In this document: positions 8,242-23,646 of the stretch, in pieces
Layout: the number at the start of each line of letters is the position of its first letter
Position numbering within the stretch: position 1 is the first letter of the stretch
IMG/VR virus record: IMGVR_UViG_3300010391_000167
Span: 1 to 26,256 of that record
Strand: one strand, 5' to 3'
Source: a virus
Length of the DNA stretch: 26,256 nt
The notes under the pieces: model-generated
Seen by the model: the letters and a program-made list of their open reading frames with translations, nothing else
What the model was told of the DNA's origin: nothing
Databases searched by the model: none
Translations under genes and position numbers: made by a program

Positions 8242-8856
8242 ATGGCACAGTCACTCACAAAGACAATACAGTCCGAACTACAGGGCATCACCTCTGTTGC
8301 GGCGAATGCCGCTCCCAGCATATCCGCGGTGAAAGACGTTTCTACGCTGATCTCGGGCCTTATCTGCATAGATTTCGGTCTTGATTCCGCAACCACCCCG
8401 GTGGGGACGGAATTCAAGGTCGATTGTTCTATGGAGGCATCCGGGAATGACGCCTGGAGAACATTGCCGGGCGGCAGGTTCATCACCGGCACGGTGGCGC
8501 CATCAGCGATCACGTCGGATGGAACGGACGCTTCTGGGGCGACAACCATTCCCATCGGAGCGACCACCCCTGCCCTCGGAGATTTGGTTTTCAGGAAGCA
8601 CGGGACTATCGCCTTGTCCGAGTGGTGCCGCGTCGTTGCTATTTCTGCCGGCGTGTCATACGCAATCCAGGACGCCCTGACGAACGACCAGGCGACTACG
8701 GTTCACTATAACAAAGCGGAGTACTTCATGGCCCTGTTCAACTTCGAAGGGGTAAAGCGTATCCGCGTGGTCTGCAACAACAACTATGCGGCATCCTCGG
8801 CTTCGTGTGTATGGCGCTGTGCCTTAATCACGACCGATAACGTTACGGTGGTCTAA
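8242..8856 (+). CDS. Putative virion structural protein
   Basis: A 204-residue, Ala/Thr/Ser-rich, probably all-beta protein. It contains FKVDCSMEASGNDAWRTLPGG and a C-terminal AEYFMALFNFEGVKRIRVVCNNNY segment, which looks like a beta-sandwich repeated strand pattern. It starts at ATG 8242 two bases after the preceding TAA; an upstream AAGGAG (8226-8231) serves as the ribosome site. No known domain is recognised. Composition and context favour a virion surface protein. Confidence 0.6.
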   Translation: MAQSLTKTIQSELQGITSVAANAAPSISAVKDVSTLISGLICIDFGLDSATTPVGTEFKVDCSMEASGNDAWRTLPGGRFITGTVAPSAITSDGTDASGATTIPIGATTPALGDLVFRKHGTIALSEWCRVVAISAGVSYAIQDALTNDQATTVHYNKAEYFMALFNFEGVKRIRVVCNNNYAASSASCVWRCALITTDNVTVV

Positions 8857-10059
8857 TTGTCCAGGATCTCTTCAAGGGGGGCGGTACGTCGCCACCGTTC
8901 CCCCGCCGAGTATTTCGCAGGCCCATACCTGAAACACGCATGGGACTTGCGGGATAATTTGCTTGACTCAGTAGGTGGCAATCACCTGATAGCGGCGGAT
9001 GTGCTGAATGGTCATGGAGATTTTGCTATAGATGCAGATCCATTTTTTGCACTCAATGCAGGTTGGACGATAAGCGGAGGAGTGGCTAATTATAATACGG
9101 GAGGCTCATCAACAAACTTAGCAAAGGCATCAATTTTAGTAGGTGGCAAAACTTATATAATAACTTATACAGTAGTTTCAATTTCAGCCGGTGCTTTTAG
9201 AGCGCAAGCAGGTGGGACGCAAGGAACTTCGAGAACTACGACTGGTACATATACTGAGACATTAGTATGCACAATTACTACGACTCTTGCTATAAATGGA
9301 AGTGTTACTTGCATAGGCTCTATTGATAATCTAACTTGCCGTGAAGTCTACGATGGCAACATAGGCTCAGACGGTGCTACATTCAACGGAGTATCAAATT
9401 GCTTGCAGACTACTCGCTCGATAGACTTAACGGCTTACAATAAAGTCTGCTTGCTGATGGACTTGAAGGTGCTGACGTATGGATTAATAGTAAACCAGGT
9501 AATAATAGAAACATCTGTAAGTCCAGCCACGAATGCAGGGTCTATAAATATATCAATACAGGCTACGGTTGCGAATGACCCATTACAGATATTTGCACTA
9601 GGTAACGTAGGAACTACAAATGCCTATTTTAATTTGCAAACAAACAGTTTGCCTGATAAAAATTTCCATACAATAGCAAGTACTTTTGATTTTTCACTTT
9701 CGACAAGTGAAGTAAATGAATATATAGATGGTCAATTCAAAGTACCATCGTTAAGGTCTGTCAATGCAAATAACACCGGAAATTTCGGAAACTTCCATTT
9801 ATACACTGGCGCAAGAGCCGGGACACTTTTGTTTTCCAACATAGCCGTTAAGAACATGGCATTGATAGCAGGACGTATCCCATCGAGTGAAGAGATAGCG
9901 GCTTATCAGGCGTGGAAGAGTGCTGTTGCCTCACTCGCCAGAATCGTCGTCCTTGACACCTACAGTGGGAAAGCCGGGGATGCTCCGGTGAGGGGTGCGA
10001 TGCCATACGTCGGAAGTACGAACAAACTGTCAAATGATCCAAAGAAAAACATTGGATAG
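8857..10059 (+). CDS. LamG-like virion lectin with nested CBM-like domain
   Basis: A 400-residue protein starting at TTG 8857 directly after the preceding TAA; no good Shine-Dalgarno is seen, so translation is probably coupled. A concanavalin/LamG-like fold starts at about 28 (AWDLRDNLLDSVGGNHL), breaks at about 52, and resumes at about 168 (GSDGATFNGVSNCLQTTRSIDLTAYNKV) to 345. Between the two parts lies a separate domain (52-165) with the GWTISGGVANYN pattern of carbohydrate-binding modules. Bases about 8990-9900 are AT-rich. A glycan-binding role in host attachment is likely. The last 60 residues are a conserved-looking tail, possibly the virion anchor. Confidence 0.65.
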   Translation: MSRISSRGAVRRHRSPAEYFAGPYLKHAWDLRDNLLDSVGGNHLIAADVLNGHGDFAIDADPFFALNAGWTISGGVANYNTGGSSTNLAKASILVGGKTYIITYTVVSISAGAFRAQAGGTQGTSRTTTGTYTETLVCTITTTLAINGSVTCIGSIDNLTCREVYDGNIGSDGATFNGVSNCLQTTRSIDLTAYNKVCLLMDLKVLTYGLIVNQVIIETSVSPATNAGSINISIQATVANDPLQIFALGNVGTTNAYFNLQTNSLPDKNFHTIASTFDFSLSTSEVNEYIDGQFKVPSLRSVNANNTGNFGNFHLYTGARAGTLLFSNIAVKNMALIAGRIPSSEEIAAYQAWKSAVASLARIVVLDTYSGKAGDAPVRGAMPYVGSTNKLSNDPKKNIG

Positions 10060-12242: not shown

Positions 12243-12392
12243 ATGGCCGTATATCCTATCGCGCCCGGTCATATAGACATGGGCAGCAACAGCACGATGC
12301 AATTTATTCCCGAAATATGGTCGGGAAAAATGCTCGTCAAGTTCTACCTCGCGACGGTGTTCAGCGAGATCAGCAATATCGATTATGAAGGT
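12243..12392 (+). CDS. Major capsid protein, exon 1
   Basis: This exon encodes residues 1-50 of the coat protein, beginning MAVYPIAPGHIDMGSNSTMQ and ending SEISNIDYEG. GGAGGAAG lies before ATG 12243. Continuing the frame past GGT (12390-12392) hits TAG at 12408-12410, so the gene works only if the intron is removed. The six bases before the junction, GAAGGT, pair with the intron guide GCCTTC (12410-12415) and give the U-G pair expected at a group I 5' splice site. The joined protein reads DYEG-EIKAKGDKV across the junction, matching the usual coat motif. Codon usage here is less C-ending than in exon 2. Confidence 0.88.
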
Positions 12393-13263
12393 TATCAAGC
12401 ACTTAGCTAGCCTTCAATAAACCGGGTGAATTGCTGGGAAGCCCAAACCGCAATGCGGTGGGTAATCAGCAGCCAAGCCGATGGAAGGCCAATAGTACAT
12501 CGGAAGGTTCAACGACTAAGGGGTGAGCAGGCCAAGCAATACTCCCCACACGAGCGCCCGGCCCAATTGTTAGAGATTGACAACTTAGGCGACATGCAGT
12601 AATATGGTGGACAGGAGGAGTTCACCATGGTCGCTAAAAGGATGTTCGCCACAGAAGATGAGCTTAGATCGTCATACCAGGAGTTAGGATCTATGCTTAA
12701 GATGGCCGAGAGGTATGGAGTTTCAAAAAAACTCATTCTCGTATATCTTAACAAGTACGGCATAGATCGAAACAAGCCAGTAGGACCAAGCATGTCGGCT
12801 GAAATATCCCGGCTTCATGCCGAGAAAAAGACAGCCAAAGAAGTATCTAAGGAACTTGGACTATCAGTGACATACATCAGGAAGCTGGCTCTGGCTCTTG
12901 GATTAAAATTTGACGACACATATCACACCGGGAAGATAAGGCAAAACGGTTACATCCTTAAGCCTAGACCGGAGCACGAGGCAGCAGATGCCAAGGGATA
13001 TGTTAGAGAGCATCGGTTGGTGATGGAAACCATCATCGGAAGGGCACTACTCAAAGATGAGGTTGTCCATCATAAAAATGGCGAAAAAAGCGATAATCGA
13101 CCAGAAAACCTAGAGCTTATGAAGAAGGGCGACCATGTGTCGCATCATCATAAGGGAAGGAAAAGGCGAGTCGCGCAATCTCTTGCAATAGGTGATGATA
13201 TAGTCTGAGCTCCGGCGTAATCCGGAGAGTCCCAGGATAAAGAGCTTGGGAGATAACAAACTG
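12393..13263 (+). ncRNA. Group I self-splicing intron
   Basis: The 871-base intron interrupts the coat gene. P1 is exon GAAGGU with GCCUUC (12410-12415). Downstream are AATTGCTGGGAAGCCC and AATCAGCAGCCAAGCC, typical P/Q core elements. The R element TTCAACGACTA (12509-12516 region) and S element GATATAGTCT (13197-13206) form P7. A perfect hairpin CTCCGG (13210-13215) / CCGGAG (13222-13227) fits P9, and CCCAGG/CTTGGG follows at 13231-13250. The intron ends with a G at 13263, as group I introns require. The HNH gene lies between the two strands of P7, in the P8 region. The 12393-12626 segment has no other gene. Confidence 0.9.
12627..13208 (+). CDS. HNH homing endonuclease (intron-encoded)
   Basis: A 193-residue protein. 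Residues about 1-90 hold two helix-turn-helix-like segments (LKMAERYGVSKKLILVYLNKYG and KEVSKELGLSVTYIRKLALALG) that would bind DNA. The HNH nuclease lies at about 122-172: YVREHRLVMETIIGR, then EVVHHKNGEKSDNRPENLELM and a final DHVSHH. Candidate catalytic His residues are the HH of EVVHHKNG. AGGAGGAG lies just upstream of ATG 12627. The TGA at 13206-13208 overlaps the 3' strand of intron helix P7. It would cut intronless coat genes and so spread the intron. Its codon use is more AT-rich than the exons. Confidence 0.92.
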   Translation: MVAKRMFATEDELRSSYQELGSMLKMAERYGVSKKLILVYLNKYGIDRNKPVGPSMSAEISRLHAEKKTAKEVSKELGLSVTYIRKLALALGLKFDDTYHTGKIRQNGYILKPRPEHEAADAKGYVREHRLVMETIIGRALLKDEVVHHKNGEKSDNRPENLELMKKGDHVSHHHKGRKRRVAQSLAIGDDIV

Positions 13264-14052
13264 GAAATCAAGGCGAAGGGAGATAAAGTCATCATCCGCA
13301 CCATCCCTGACGTGACCATCCGGTCCTACGTCAAGGGCATGGACCTCAATTACACCGCGCAGGAATCGACCTCCATCAATATGGTCATCGACAAGGGCAA
13401 GTACTTTGCCTTCCCGGTGAACCGCGTTGACCAGGCTCAGGCGGACATCAATTTCTTGGAAAAGTGGTCCTCGGACGCCTCCGAGCAGATGAAGATCGCC
13501 ATCGACAGCGACGTGCTTAACGCCGTCTATGCCGATGCGCACGCCGATAATATCGGCACCACGGCCGGCAAAGTATCCGGAGGCTTCAATCTCGGAACGA
13601 CCGGCAGCCCGGTGACCCTCACCAAGGCGAACATCCTCGACTATATCGTGGATTGCAATACGGTTCTCGACGAGCAGAACGTTCCCGAGACCGATCGCTA
13701 CCTGGTGCTGCCCAACTGGGCATGCAACCTCATCAAGAAGTCGGACCTCAAGGACGCCAGCCTCACCGGCGACAGCGTCTCGGTTCTCCGCAACGGCCGC
13801 ATCGGCCGGATCGACAACTTCACCCTGTACAAGAGCAACAACCTGTCCATGGTGACGGACGGCGTGATGACCTGCAACAACATCATGTTCGGCCACAAGT
13901 CGGCGATCACCTTCGCGACCCAGGTCACCGATATGGAGACCCTGGTGAACCCCAAGGACTTCGGCAAGCTTGTCCGTGGCCTCCAGGTCTACGGCTACAA
14001 GGTCATCAAACCCGAATCCCTCGGTGTCCTCTACGCGCGGAAGGGCTACTAA
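13264..14052 (+). CDS. Major capsid protein, exon 2
   Basis: This exon supplies residues 51-312 of the 312-residue coat protein, starting EIKAKGDKVIIRTIPDVTIRSYVKG. The pattern fits a P22-type coat of the HK97 fold: INMVIDKGKYFAFPVNRVDQAQAD, LDEQNVPETDRYLVLPNW, then LVRGLQVYGYKVIKPESLGVLYARKG at the end. The frame is open a little further upstream (from 13246), but that part is intron. Codons here end mainly in C or G (ATC, GGC, AAC, GAC), as expected for the most abundant virion protein. The following gap to 14109 holds a weak CCGGG/CCCGG hairpin. Confidence 0.9.
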   Translation, partial: EIKAKGDKVIIRTIPDVTIRSYVKGMDLNYTAQESTSINMVIDKGKYFAFPVNRVDQAQADINFLEKWSSDASEQMKIAIDSDVLNAVYADAHADNIGTTAGKVSGGFNLGTTGSPVTLTKANILDYIVDCNTVLDEQNVPETDRYLVLPNWACNLIKKSDLKDASLTGDSVSVLRNGRIGRIDNFTLYKSNNLSMVTDGVMTCNNIMFGHKSAITFATQVTDMETLVNPKDFGKLVRGLQVYGYKVIKPESLGVLYARKGY

Positions 14053-15673: not shown

Positions 15674-15695
15674 ATAAATTTAAGGAGGTGGTAGC

Positions 15696-16034
15696 ATGCA
15701 GGACGTGAAGTTCCAGTTCTCATGGGCAAGCGGCGCAAGTGCTGCTAAGACTCAGCCAATCAGCCATAACGGCTTCCTCAAGCAGTTCTACACCATCATC
15801 AACGACAATACGGGGAACCGCACGCTGACGGTAGAGATCCTTGACCAGGACAGCGTCTCGGTCTACTCTCTGGCCGGAATTGCCGAGAATGCCACGACCA
15901 CAACCCAGTTGACCACCACGACAATGGCACCGGTTGGGGAGAAATACTTCGTCAAGGTCACCCCGTCAGGGGATCCCGGTGCATCCGGAATGACCGTGAC
16001 TCTCAAGATGTTCCTTGCAACAAATCTGTTTTAA
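15696..16034 (+). CDS. Small beta-rich structural protein
   Basis: A 112-residue protein with TAAGGAGGTG-like Shine-Dalgarno upstream (AAGGAGGTGG) and ATG 15696. It looks like one beta-sandwich domain: VKFQFSWASG, FYTIINDNTGNRTLTVEILDQDSVSVYS, and KYFVKVTPSGDPGASGMTVTLKMFL. Such small proteins appear next to head genes of podovirus-like phages. The function is not known; a decoration or minor tail role is possible. The strong ribosome site suggests substantial expression. No signal peptide or membrane helix is present. Confidence 0.6.
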   Translation: MQDVKFQFSWASGASAAKTQPISHNGFLKQFYTIINDNTGNRTLTVEILDQDSVSVYSLAGIAENATTTTQLTTTTMAPVGEKYFVKVTPSGDPGASGMTVTLKMFLATNLF

Positions 16035-18945: not shown

Positions 18946-20942
18946 TGGCCAGCGTCAAGCTGACGGGAAATATATCGCTTGCCTCAAGATGGCTTCCGTG
19001 GGCACATGATAAGCTCCGGAACTTGAGGCAGGCGACCAAACTTCGGAATGTCTACACGAACTCCGAGTACTTTCAGCCGGCGCGCGGAGTAACCGTAATG
19101 CTGAGCATCGTCTCTGGAATGGAGTCGATCCTCATAAATGCAATGGCCGGAGCCGGGGCCTTCGTAGTATGCCACGTCGGAGACTCAACATCTGGCGCGG
19201 ACTACATCAAGAAGTACTACGACGTGGATACGTGGCAGGAGATTGCAAAGCCGTTTGACTGGCAGCTCATTGATGACGGAAAGTATGGTGTGAATTTCGA
19301 TCTAATTGGGACAGTAGAGTACCAGTCGGACCCGGATGATTATGTATACTATCTCAACGGAGGAGGCATCGGGGTGGCATCGTCAGTCCTTGGCATAGAC
19401 GCAAAGAACACCTCTACCGGGACTTCTCGCAGGTTCATCATAAATGAATCTGCCGAGAGGGAAGCCTGGGATGCCATGGTTGATTTTGGTGCAATACAGT
19501 ATCTTGTTCCGTCGTTCAGGCTTACGGCGCGACAGTATCAGATCTCACCGCTTCAGCCGTTTGTCTGTAGATACACAGCGGACGGGATACTTACCATAAA
19601 CGACACAGTGAGAACGTCTCTTGCGTCTGTCATAGCTCTTAACAAGAAGGAGTTTTTGAGCTATACCGACAAGCTGATGTTCTCGGCAAAAGCTTTTCTG
19701 CACTACCTTAACACCAGCATCCCCAAGAAGTCGGTAGCGCTTACTGGCACTACTGACGACGAAGGGCACGCGGGAGCGGCGCTAGCAGCATCTGTTCAGT
19801 ATTACTCGGATGGAAGGGTTGCTCAGGACATACTACGGGCGGCTCAGTACACCATTCCGGCCGGGCCAGACACCGACGAACCTATAACGAAAAGCACGGT
19901 GAACCCGGTGGCTGGGACGTCGGTAGACTCTACCGTGTACCATAGGGGTGCTGGTGACAACCGAGACAAGTGGTATCAAGACGCATCGGCCAACTCAGAC
20001 AGAACGGTAGATGGTGATATGCTTGTCACCAACTTTGGGTTCTCTGCGGTAAAGAACGACGTGACGCTTCCGTATGGAGTAAGAGAGGACGGGGCGATAA
20101 CAGGCGTTCGGGTAGAGAAGACAACGGACGGCTCGTCTGTCAAGACGTCCCTAGTGGTGGCCGGGGATACGGTAGACACAAATGGATACGAGGATACAAT
20201 CTGGTTTCATCCGGACGATGTCGCTACCATACCGAAGACCGTTGGAGATCTTGGGCGAGCGCCGATAGTGGCGTTCAGGACGCACTTTAACATACTGCAT
20301 GTTCACCACGGGGCAAAGTTTGATGCCGTAGTGTACATCAAAACAACTTATGTAAGCAGCAGCGAGCGGTTCACCGAGCACTACACGGGCTGGCTTGGAA
20401 GCCCGCTGTATGTAGACCCAACGGCCAGGATAAGAGAGACGTTGGTTCTTTCGAGGAACAGGTATAGAGCGTGCGTCAATGGGGTCGTGTATGACCTTGG
20501 GCATGCGTTCTACCAGGTGGAGAGAAAGCTTACGGTTGCTCCGGTCACGCCTGTCGGCGGAGACGTTGCGGTTAATACCGTATATCTCGAAGGAGTCTCT
20601 GACGCGGGGTACAACGAGCTTGGAATGGCCCTGAGCGACCAGGAGCAGGTTTCAAGGATATTCACATCAGAGAACGACCGGCTGCTGCTCGCCTTTGATG
20701 CTTTCCCGATATCATGGCAGCATGAGCTTGTCGTATCGGGCACCACGTTGACGTATAACGTTATCCCTGCATCGGCGCCCACGATCCCTCCAACGGTTGA
20801 CGGTGGATATACAACGCCAAATCAGAGAAGGGTCATTCTATTCTCTTCAGACGGAGAGATAGCGCAAGACGTTGATTTCCCCGAAAAGAGTGAAGGCGTC
20901 ATGTGGAACAGGCTCAATGGAATCAGTCTCATGGAAGCGTAA
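18945..20942 (+). CDS. Large putative virion protein, unknown
   Basis: A 665-residue protein beginning MASVKLTGNISLASRWLPWAHDKLRNLRQ. It is mixed alpha/beta, with a C-terminal beta-rich part. Recognisable low-level features are QYLVPSFRLTARQYQISPLQPF (about 185-210), SVALTGTTDDEGHAGAALAASVQYYSDGRV, and late SWQHELVVSGTTLTYN. I do not recognise a family. Size and place, between the nozzle-like gene and the PKD genes, suggest a tail or appendage protein. The start is in a TAATG overlap with 18142-18945. Its TAA begins the exact 12-base Shine-Dalgarno of the next gene. Confidence 0.65.
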   Translation: MASVKLTGNISLASRWLPWAHDKLRNLRQATKLRNVYTNSEYFQPARGVTVMLSIVSGMESILINAMAGAGAFVVCHVGDSTSGADYIKKYYDVDTWQEIAKPFDWQLIDDGKYGVNFDLIGTVEYQSDPDDYVYYLNGGGIGVASSVLGIDAKNTSTGTSRRFIINESAEREAWDAMVDFGAIQYLVPSFRLTARQYQISPLQPFVCRYTADGILTINDTVRTSLASVIALNKKEFLSYTDKLMFSAKAFLHYLNTSIPKKSVALTGTTDDEGHAGAALAASVQYYSDGRVAQDILRAAQYTIPAGPDTDEPITKSTVNPVAGTSVDSTVYHRGAGDNRDKWYQDASANSDRTVDGDMLVTNFGFSAVKNDVTLPYGVREDGAITGVRVEKTTDGSSVKTSLVVAGDTVDTNGYEDTIWFHPDDVATIPKTVGDLGRAPIVAFRTHFNILHVHHGAKFDAVVYIKTTYVSSSERFTEHYTGWLGSPLYVDPTARIRETLVLSRNRYRACVNGVVYDLGHAFYQVERKLTVAPVTPVGGDVAVNTVYLEGVSDAGYNELGMALSDQEQVSRIFTSENDRLLLAFDAFPISWQHELVVSGTTLTYNVIPASAPTIPPTVDGGYTTPNQRRVILFSSDGEIAQDVDFPEKSEGVMWNRLNGISLMEA

Positions 20943-20951
20943 GGAGGTGAT
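20940..20951 (+). promoter_or_regulatory. Perfect 12-base Shine-Dalgarno
   Basis: TAAGGAGGTGAT is the exact complement of the 3' end of bacterial 16S rRNA as known from E. coli. ATG 20957 follows with good spacing. The ribosome site is among the strongest possible, yet the frame it opens meets a UGA after 18 codons. Confidence 0.85.
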
Positions 20952-20956
20952 GTTCC

Positions 20957-21946
20957 ATGGCGGCAACAGCAACAGTAACGTGCAGAGTTGACCAGAACGG
21001 CATCCAGTTCTGAGTGAACTCAGGACTCCCGGTGGCACCGGGAACACAACTTCAAGGTGGAGTAGATCCATATCAGATGGGCGGCTTCCCCACAAACTTC
21101 GGCAGTTACACATCCGGCGTCGGATATGGGCCTGGGCAGGGAGACCTTCTGCGCCAATGGGCTGTTCAACATGGATACTATCATCCGGAAACCTATACAT
21201 GGCTGTACTCAACGGTGTCATTCCCTGCACCGAACGTGCGCTTTTCGTACACACAAAAGGCCGGAGGGATGGTTGAGTTTCAGAATACCAGCAAGAACGG
21301 AGTTATCATCGCGTCCGCGTGGAACTTTGGGGATGGATCAACGTCTTCGCTCAAGAACCCCTCTCACGTATACGCTGCTGCGGGGACATACGCAGTCACC
21401 CTGAGAACGCAGAACTCAGCGGGCATCTCCTCAAAGCGCACGAATATCGTGGTCACAATAGATGCCCCAACGGCATCGATATCTGCAACAGTTGGTGGAT
21501 ACACTGCGTACGTGACATTCACTGGAAACTTCACTCCTACGGAGATATTGTGGAGCTTCGGCGACGGAAGAACAGCGACCACCACCGCAAACGCCGACAT
21601 GGAAATAACATACCCAGATGACACCAACGGAACGTTCACCATCACCGCTGTGGCTGATGGGATATCATGCTCGACGTCCATCACGATTGACCCGGGGATT
21701 ACTATAAGCTGGAAGGCCGTTTCCGGAGCCACCGGGTATAGGCTTTATTATAACTTCGACGACTGGGGAGACGGGACGTTCACGCGATGGGATCCTGATC
21801 TCGGGAATGTGACGAGCTACAGCCTGACGACGGGTCCCGGCATGGACGTTGACCGCGATTACGACAACTGGTTCTATGTCGTTGCTCTTGACGGGGTCAT
21901 GGAGTCTGCTGCGTCTGACATCATCTACATCCCGAAGGTGGTTTAA
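20957..21946 (+). CDS. PKD/FN3-like adhesin with in-frame UGA
   Basis: From ATG 20957 the frame encodes 18 residues (MAATATVTCRVDQNGIQF), a TGA at 21011-21013, then 310 more codons in the same frame to 21946. Read through, it is a 329-residue protein. PKD domain 1 is about 93-166 (WNFGDGSTSSLKNPSHVY, AAAGTYAVTLRTQNSAG). A PKD-like domain 2 has EILWSFGDGRTA near 197-206. The C-terminal 80 residues look FN3-like (ISWKAVSGATGYRLYYN). Such modules mediate surface binding. The UGA could be read through, followed by re-initiation at the adjacent GTG 21014, or be a mutation or error. The reading TGG (Trp) would be natural. Confidence 0.7.
21027..21043 (+). other. Hairpin 13 bases after in-frame UGA
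   Basis: TCCCGGT (21027-21033) and ACCGGGA (21037-21043) form a perfect 7-bp stem with loop GGC. It lies 13 bases downstream of the UGA at 21011-21013. Stem-loops at this place can aid readthrough and resemble the general layout of bacterial SECIS elements, but that model has low specificity. Confidence 0.5.
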
Positions 21947-23646
21947 TGGGAATTCAGCTATTACATGAACAGCATATCCTGATACCAGACGACGGCGGCG
22001 GGTTCGGTTTTATCCTGCCATATGTCCCCGCTACAAACGACGTCATGATATTCAAGTTCTCCAAGACGGACTCAGAGAATATCCTGATTCACAACTGGAA
22101 CGAGTTGATGTCAAACCCTCGCGCCACTCTTGACGGCCTCGGGAACGTCATCTACACCTGTTACATGAGATGGACGCGTGATTGCATCACCAAGTACGAA
22201 ACGCAAGGCAATGCAATAAAGTTCAGCCATAACTACGGTTCAGCGGAAGAGCAAGCCAGCGGCTCGATGTGGTGCTTCCGGGGTGTAAATACTTCCGGAA
22301 GTCCGTTCACGCATTCCGAGACAGGCGGGGCGAATGGAGACCATATCACGTTCTCAGACGTGACGTCAGCAGATCTAAGCGACCTCGTCGGATGCTATTT
22401 CCTGGCGTATGCCATGATTACCGAGCCCGGGCAGGGTCCGGTCTCCGATGTAGACTTCGCCAATACGGGAGACTTCCCGTTTGTAAATGTCGGTCCTGAC
22501 CACGAAGCCGCCAGGTTCTCGGCCGGCGCATACGGTTCCTATACCGGAGTGCCGAGAGCAACGTTCAGGGCCGAATTATTCATAACCGGAAGCGGTCAGA
22601 TGATGGGGACTCTCGATGCGATAGCCCCCGAGACCGCCCCGGTCGGACCTGATGTGCCAACTTCCTTCGCATGGGAATACACGCTTCCGGATCCTACAAC
22701 GGCGGGATTTACGGTTGACCAAAGCGCTGGGCCAGCCCCCTTGACGGTACAGTTCGCCGACTCCAGTACCGATTCTCCGACGACATGGGCATGGGACTTC
22801 GGTGATGGAACGACATCAACGAGCCAGAACCCGACCCATATCTTTACGCTGCCCGGGACGTATGAGGTCACGCTCACCGCGACGAATGCTCAGGGGACGG
22901 ACACCTACACATATCCGATATATGTGTCCGATCCCGCCGAGGTCACAATCCCCCATGTTGACCCGGTGGCATCGTTCACCACGGACGGGTTGCAGATCCT
23001 CCCGGGAGATACGGTCACATTTACGGACACATCTTCGGGGAGTCCGGTGTCATGGCTGTGGACATTCGGCGGAAACGAAGGGACATCGGCAAGCCAGAAC
23101 CCCACGCATCAATTTGATCTGGAAGGGCAGTATTCGGTAAGCCTCCTGGTCACAAACTCATCCGGAGACACGTCATATACTGTTCAGGTCGTCAATGTCT
23201 CGAATGCGGGTCACGCGAACGACACTATCCCGACAGCGACGATTACGGCGAGCCTGTATAAAGTCCGGACCCACACGAATGTGACGTTCACTTCGGTTGT
23301 ATCGACGCCTGACGTGTTCTACCAGTGGGACTTTGGCGATGGCAGCACGTCGTCAGAAGCTTCTCCGGTGCACGACTTCGCATTGCCGGGCAAATTGACC
23401 GTGTCGCTTACGGTGACGAATGTGTATGGCCAGACCACCTGCTCTATCGTAATTGTCGTCATCGGCAGGATAGCTTGGGGCATCTCGAGAGAGAAGACAT
23501 ATCAACTCGACCAGGACAATGACCGGGTGTCGATATACAGCTCGGCGGGGTCATTCATTAAACACTTCGGCCGGCGTGGCAGCACACCGGGAAAATTAAT
23601 AGCACCGACGACGCTTCACGTCGTTCGGCCAATCATGGGAGGATAA
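21946..23646 (+). CDS. Adhesin with three PKD domains and NHL piece
   Basis: A 566-residue protein. Residues 1-250 are a beta-rich phage module (VMIFKFSKTDSENILIHNWNEL, NAIKFSHNYGSAEEQ, MWCFRGV) of unknown fold. Three PKD domains follow: about 252-330 (WAWDFGDGTTSTSQNPTHIF), 338-420 (LWTFGGNEGTSASQNPTHQF) and 428-507 (QWDFGDGSTSS). Residues about 519-560 hold one NHL-type repeat (DQDNDRVSIYSSAGSFIKHFGRRG), after which the protein stops. PKD domains are common in surface proteins of bacteria and methanogenic archaea and mediate contacts. It probably forms part of a receptor-binding appendage. ATG 21946 overlaps the preceding TAA. Confidence 0.75.
   Translation: MGIQLLHEQHILIPDDGGGFGFILPYVPATNDVMIFKFSKTDSENILIHNWNELMSNPRATLDGLGNVIYTCYMRWTRDCITKYETQGNAIKFSHNYGSAEEQASGSMWCFRGVNTSGSPFTHSETGGANGDHITFSDVTSADLSDLVGCYFLAYAMITEPGQGPVSDVDFANTGDFPFVNVGPDHEAARFSAGAYGSYTGVPRATFRAELFITGSGQMMGTLDAIAPETAPVGPDVPTSFAWEYTLPDPTTAGFTVDQSAGPAPLTVQFADSSTDSPTTWAWDFGDGTTSTSQNPTHIFTLPGTYEVTLTATNAQGTDTYTYPIYVSDPAEVTIPHVDPVASFTTDGLQILPGDTVTFTDTSSGSPVSWLWTFGGNEGTSASQNPTHQFDLEGQYSVSLLVTNSSGDTSYTVQVVNVSNAGHANDTIPTATITASLYKVRTHTNVTFTSVVSTPDVFYQWDFGDGSTSSEASPVHDFALPGKLTVSLTVTNVYGQTTCSIVIVVIGRIAWGISREKTYQLDQDNDRVSIYSSAGSFIKHFGRRGSTPGKLIAPTTLHVVRPIMGG

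Follow-up and report, generated by a model that had tools for sequence, protein, structure and literature searches.

Among the stop codons, UGA is the leakiest, and the context in which E. coli tRNA-Trp is prone to read it is UGA followed by A (PMC5289835). The A1 protein of phage Qbeta depends on such an event, tryptophan being misincorporated at a UGA about once in 15 (PMC8067240). Termination followed by reinitiation offers another way past a stop codon; it is efficient only where the two reading frames overlap or lie a very short distance apart (PMC10666635). A Shine-Dalgarno site is not always essential for reinitiation, and its removal cut reinitiation substantially in four of five E. 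coli gene pairs (PMC6728339). Where UGA is read as selenocysteine, the associated hairpin is the bacterial SECIS, for which the published limits are a loop of 3-9 nt, a stem of 4-16 bp, a G in the first two loop positions, a UGA-to-loop distance of 16-37 nt and an MFE of -7.5 or lower (PMC13188914).

The window analysed here is an entire uncultured-virus record, a single contig 26,256 bases long. Its genes, which lie without exception on the + strand and are tightly joined through TAATG and ATGA overlaps, include those for terminase, an SU10-type portal, capsid, neck and the tail region. A preliminary description had pointed to a 12-base ribosome site before ATG 20957, an in-frame TGA interrupting a 329-codon PKD gene, a GTG directly after this stop and, 13 nt past it, a 7-bp perfect stem with a GGC loop. 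All four elements are present in the sequence (Table 1), and the frame is otherwise open until it is closed by TAA 21944-21946, the count of 329 codons from ATG 20957 including the TGA.

Table 1. Features of the interrupted gene and its neighbours, with positions in the window.
Feature	Positions	Strand	Remarks
Preceding gene, 665 aa	18945..20942	+	Stop overlaps the ribosome site of the interrupted gene
Shine-Dalgarno site TAAGGAGGTGAT	20940..20951	+	12 bases complementary to the 16S rRNA 3' tail
18-codon coding start MAATATVTCRVDQNGIQF	20957..21010	+	Codon-usage score +4.7 bits in frame
UGA stop in frame, codon 19	21011..21013	+	TGA is a working stop elsewhere in the genome
GTG, possible reinitiation start	21014..21016	+	Abuts the stop; no Shine-Dalgarno site
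Rest of the gene, 310 codons, intact to TAA	21014..21946	+	PKD domain at residues 83-148
7-bp hairpin TCCCGGT/ACCGGGA, loop GGC	21027..21043	+	-10.5 kcal/mol, 13 nt past the stop
Following gene, 566 aa, three PKD domains	21946..23646	+	Start inside a TAATG overlap

The ribosome site occurs only once, and three of its 12 bases, TAA 20940-20942, double as the stop codon of the upstream gene. Its last G of AGGAGG (20947) is spaced 9 nt from ATG 20957, and its duplex with the 16S tail, at -19.5 kcal/mol, is the strongest among the 31 starts tested. It is nearly matched by that of gene 15696, where the near-perfect Shine-Dalgarno sequence TTTAAGGAGGTGGT (15682-15696) precedes a 112-aa gene and reaches -18.8 kcal/mol, and several further starts have duplexes of -11 to -12 kcal/mol; a strong Shine-Dalgarno site is the norm in this genome. 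Past the UGA, the duplex before GTG 21014 is only -1.9 kcal/mol, which amounts to no Shine-Dalgarno site and leaves ATG 20957 as the sole well-signalled start. GTG 21032 has a weak site (-4.4 kcal/mol), and ATG 21077 an apparent pairing of -10.5, but an internal loop breaks this pairing and its position is far upstream.

The short stretch between ATG 20957 and the UGA has the composition of a real gene. With a codon-usage score trained on the 25 other genes of the window, the value of its 18 codons is typical of true genes (in-frame mean 4.3), and out-of-frame stretches score as high in 0.1-0.2% of cases (P 0.001-0.002). The codons from 21077 onward, taken together, score +58 bits in frame and are clearly coding, with PKD domain matches to PF18911 (1.3e-17) and PF00801 (5.2e-14); the 310 codons past the UGA contain no further stop or frame damage. 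Coding signal is thus present before and after the TGA in one and the same frame, the 21 codons straight after it (21014-21076) being ambiguous to poor (lnLR -0.6). Given in-frame coding signal in the 18 codons and a GTG 21014 that lacks a Shine-Dalgarno site, the 329-codon gene begins naturally at ATG 20957 and is interrupted by the UGA. The weak score of the 21 codons would suit a different explanation, namely that the 18-codon reading frame is accidental, that translation begins at GTG 21014 or ATG 21077 and that the strong Shine-Dalgarno sequence is a relic or has another role. This is decidedly doubtful: the 18 codons would have to look coding in this frame by chance (P about 0.002), and the strongest site of the genome is correctly spaced from ATG 20957, whereas the alternative starts lack a good one.

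An alternative genetic code, in which UGA would be reassigned as a sense codon, is ruled out because TGA ends 8 of the 25 genes and occurs inside none of them (0/25); the other stops are TAA (15) and TAG (2). No tRNA gene was found in the window, which therefore holds no suppressor tRNA.

The reading that accounts best for these observations, to which we assign a probability of roughly 0.52, is that the UGA at codon 19 is a recent nonsense mutation, a strain variant or a consensus error in a PKD tail or fibre gene; that mutation or error is the cause is what we infer from the arrangement. The preliminary description had left three readings side by side (readthrough, reinitiation at the GTG or a mutated tryptophan codon), and a mutated sense codon fits best, given 18 truly coding codons and a GTG without a ribosome site. 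The locus would be an ordinary PKD tail-region gene of 329 codons, with its ATG 20957 and strong Shine-Dalgarno site, whose codon 19 was lost to UGA. Ribosomes would load efficiently at this ATG and most would terminate 18 residues later; the other 310 codons would be translated only at low level, by background misreading of UGA or by reinitiation at GTG 21014, and the hairpin would be incidental. The undamaged downstream frame suggests that the mutation is recent, and the PKD gene may be dispensable. As for the codon that was lost, TGG, CGA and GGA are used 91, 17 and 156 times, respectively, and GGA would require a transversion; since transitions are generally in excess, these counts point to tryptophan as the codon most likely to have given the TGA in one step. 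In favour of a mutation, the 18 codons look coding in this frame and in no other, and the hairpin is at chance density with no match in Rfam. Against it, the undamaged 310 codons would equally suit continued expression, and the UGA is followed at once by a GTG and, after 13 nt, by one of the stabler hairpins of the window.

How much weight this hairpin can bear was judged from a count of stems with 7 bp or more and loops of 3-8 nt on the + strand, the expectation being derived from first-order Markov simulations. Because 12 such stems were observed and about 10 expected, the hairpin is near chance and not special in itself, although it ranks second in stability among the 12. From the TGA onward the folding z values are not unusual (-1.3 over 46 nt, -0.6 over 60 nt); the hairpin is absent from the minimum-energy structure predicted for a 126-nt context, and an Rfam search at the site returned no family with E up to 5. 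The hairpin nevertheless falls within the bacterial SECIS limits, with a UGA-to-loop distance of 20 and an MFE of -10.5, so that one could imagine the UGA being read as selenocysteine. This is extremely improbable: the same model accepts 15 of the 419 TGA triplets on this strand (3.6%), only PKD and no redox domain was found in the protein, and the collections searched yielded neither a cysteine homologue nor a homologue of the N-terminus of any kind, besides the lack of an Rfam match.

A hairpin 13 nt downstream of a UGA followed by 310 open codons also invites comparison with programmed readthrough, in which a near-cognate tRNA, probably tRNA-Trp, would decode the UGA with the help of the stem and yield some full-length 329-residue protein, as for Qbeta A1. 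The short product, however, would be an 18-mer without evident use, the base after the UGA is G and not the A of the tRNA-Trp-prone context, and the stem stands at chance level, all of which makes such readthrough distinctly improbable. More speculative still, and quite a long shot, is a UGA recoding switch in a DNA-virus tail gene, where heavy initiation would be coupled to an early UGA and hairpin that let only a set fraction of ribosomes pass, with tryptophan or even selenocysteine inserted, thereby fixing a low copy number of the PKD fibre per virion.

The direct abutment of stop and start (distance 0) bears on yet another possibility, in which the strong site would drive translation of an 18-residue leader and ribosomes would restart at GTG 21014 or GTG 21032 to make a 310-aa product, the leader setting its level. 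Translational coupling works at near-zero distance (PMC10666635), which makes such a restart possible, and the tight gene junctions of this genome are in keeping with it. Of the features usual for reinitiation, the adjoining stop and start are present, whereas the Shine-Dalgarno site before the second start, usual if not obligatory, is absent at GTG 21014 and weak at GTG 21032. The codons that would open the product (21014-21076) are moreover poor as coding sequence, and the supposed leader shares the gene's frame and looks like the N-terminal part of its product. On balance, we regard reinitiation as the basis of this arrangement as unlikely.

Relatives of the gene were sought in several collections. 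The first 93 residues found no relative among viral contigs or GTDB genomes and gave only chance-level matches among phages and plasmids; a degenerate pattern with the UGA codon left free had no match. Abundant PKD matches cover the PKD part only. The neighbouring genes behave similarly, neither the preceding 665-aa gene nor the non-PKD part of the following 566-aa gene having a relative among viral contigs, and the records behind capsid, terminase and PKD loci contained no usable relative of the N-terminus. There are viruses whose capsid protein is 34-58% identical; the capsid-related records (the larger ones 32, 34 and 61 kb, several others being short fragments) contain no match to the interrupted gene, as would be expected for a dispensable, fast-changing fibre gene. 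A genome scan for the host with the capsid protein gave no match. PKD proteins of Methanosarcina plasmids align from residue 1, but the aligned parts are internal to long repeat proteins, which a search with only the 93-residue N-terminus fails to recover even at E 10; shuffles give P of about 0.01 or less, computed after the match had been selected. This alignment hints, if only faintly, that the sequences flanking the UGA may belong to one domain. A structure predicted for the read-through protein from its sequence without an alignment has strands at residues 3-12 and 15-21, of which the latter crosses the UGA (residue 19); its mean pLDDT is 39, too low for use.

Other parts of the genome have peculiarities of their own. 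The major capsid gene, whose first exon begins at 12243 and whose second ends at 14052, is split by a group I intron at 12303-13227 (Rfam RF00028, 54.2 bits), which carries an HNH endonuclease reading frame at 12627-13208. In the related records L025 (2558-3100) and L026 (9356-9898), a 44% identical HNH homologue sits between the same two capsid exons on the opposite (minus) strand, an arrangement suggestive of an independent arrival or inversion of the endonuclease or its intron at this site. Roughly 5 kb upstream of the main capsid gene, the related viruses L027 and L028 (4349-4729, 10001-10783) have another capsid-like match, which is partial and 34% identical. At 8242-10059, two reading frames of 204 and 400 aa lie in the same frame, parted by a single TAA (8854-8856) with TTG 8857 directly after it; this TTG has a GGTGG site, so that the region may be read as a close junction of two genes or as one gene that has been interrupted.

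Were the UGA fixed and in use, the locus would rank as an unusual example of stop-codon recoding in a DNA-virus tail gene; as the evidence stands, it is one interrupted gene in one uncultured-virus contig. A perfect Shine-Dalgarno site, a stop and a hairpin in a row look designed, yet the hairpin is at chance density and another gene has a near-equal site. The combination had been called striking in the preliminary description; its elements are all real, and its strikingness is weakened on these two counts and by the failure to find any relative in which conservation of the UGA could be followed.

Set beside the described systems, the locus resembles phage Qbeta A1 in that a long open frame extends beyond a UGA among virion genes. 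It differs in that the short product of Qbeta is the coat protein, where here it would be an 18-mer, and in that the next base here is G; in Qbeta there is a readthrough product, whereas here such a product is hypothetical. With termination-reinitiation systems it shares the adjoining stop and GTG in a tightly packed operon, but here the second start has no Shine-Dalgarno site and the upstream reading frame, 18 codons long, is in the frame of the gene. Bacterial selenoprotein genes with a SECIS have a UGA and hairpin whose geometry this locus reproduces within the formal limits; here, in contrast, there is no redox protein and no cysteine homologue. The nonsense-interrupted phage tail or fibre gene, whether pseudogene or strain variant, shares with the locus a standard code, a strong native start, a single in-frame stop, an undamaged downstream frame and the character of an orphan accessory gene.
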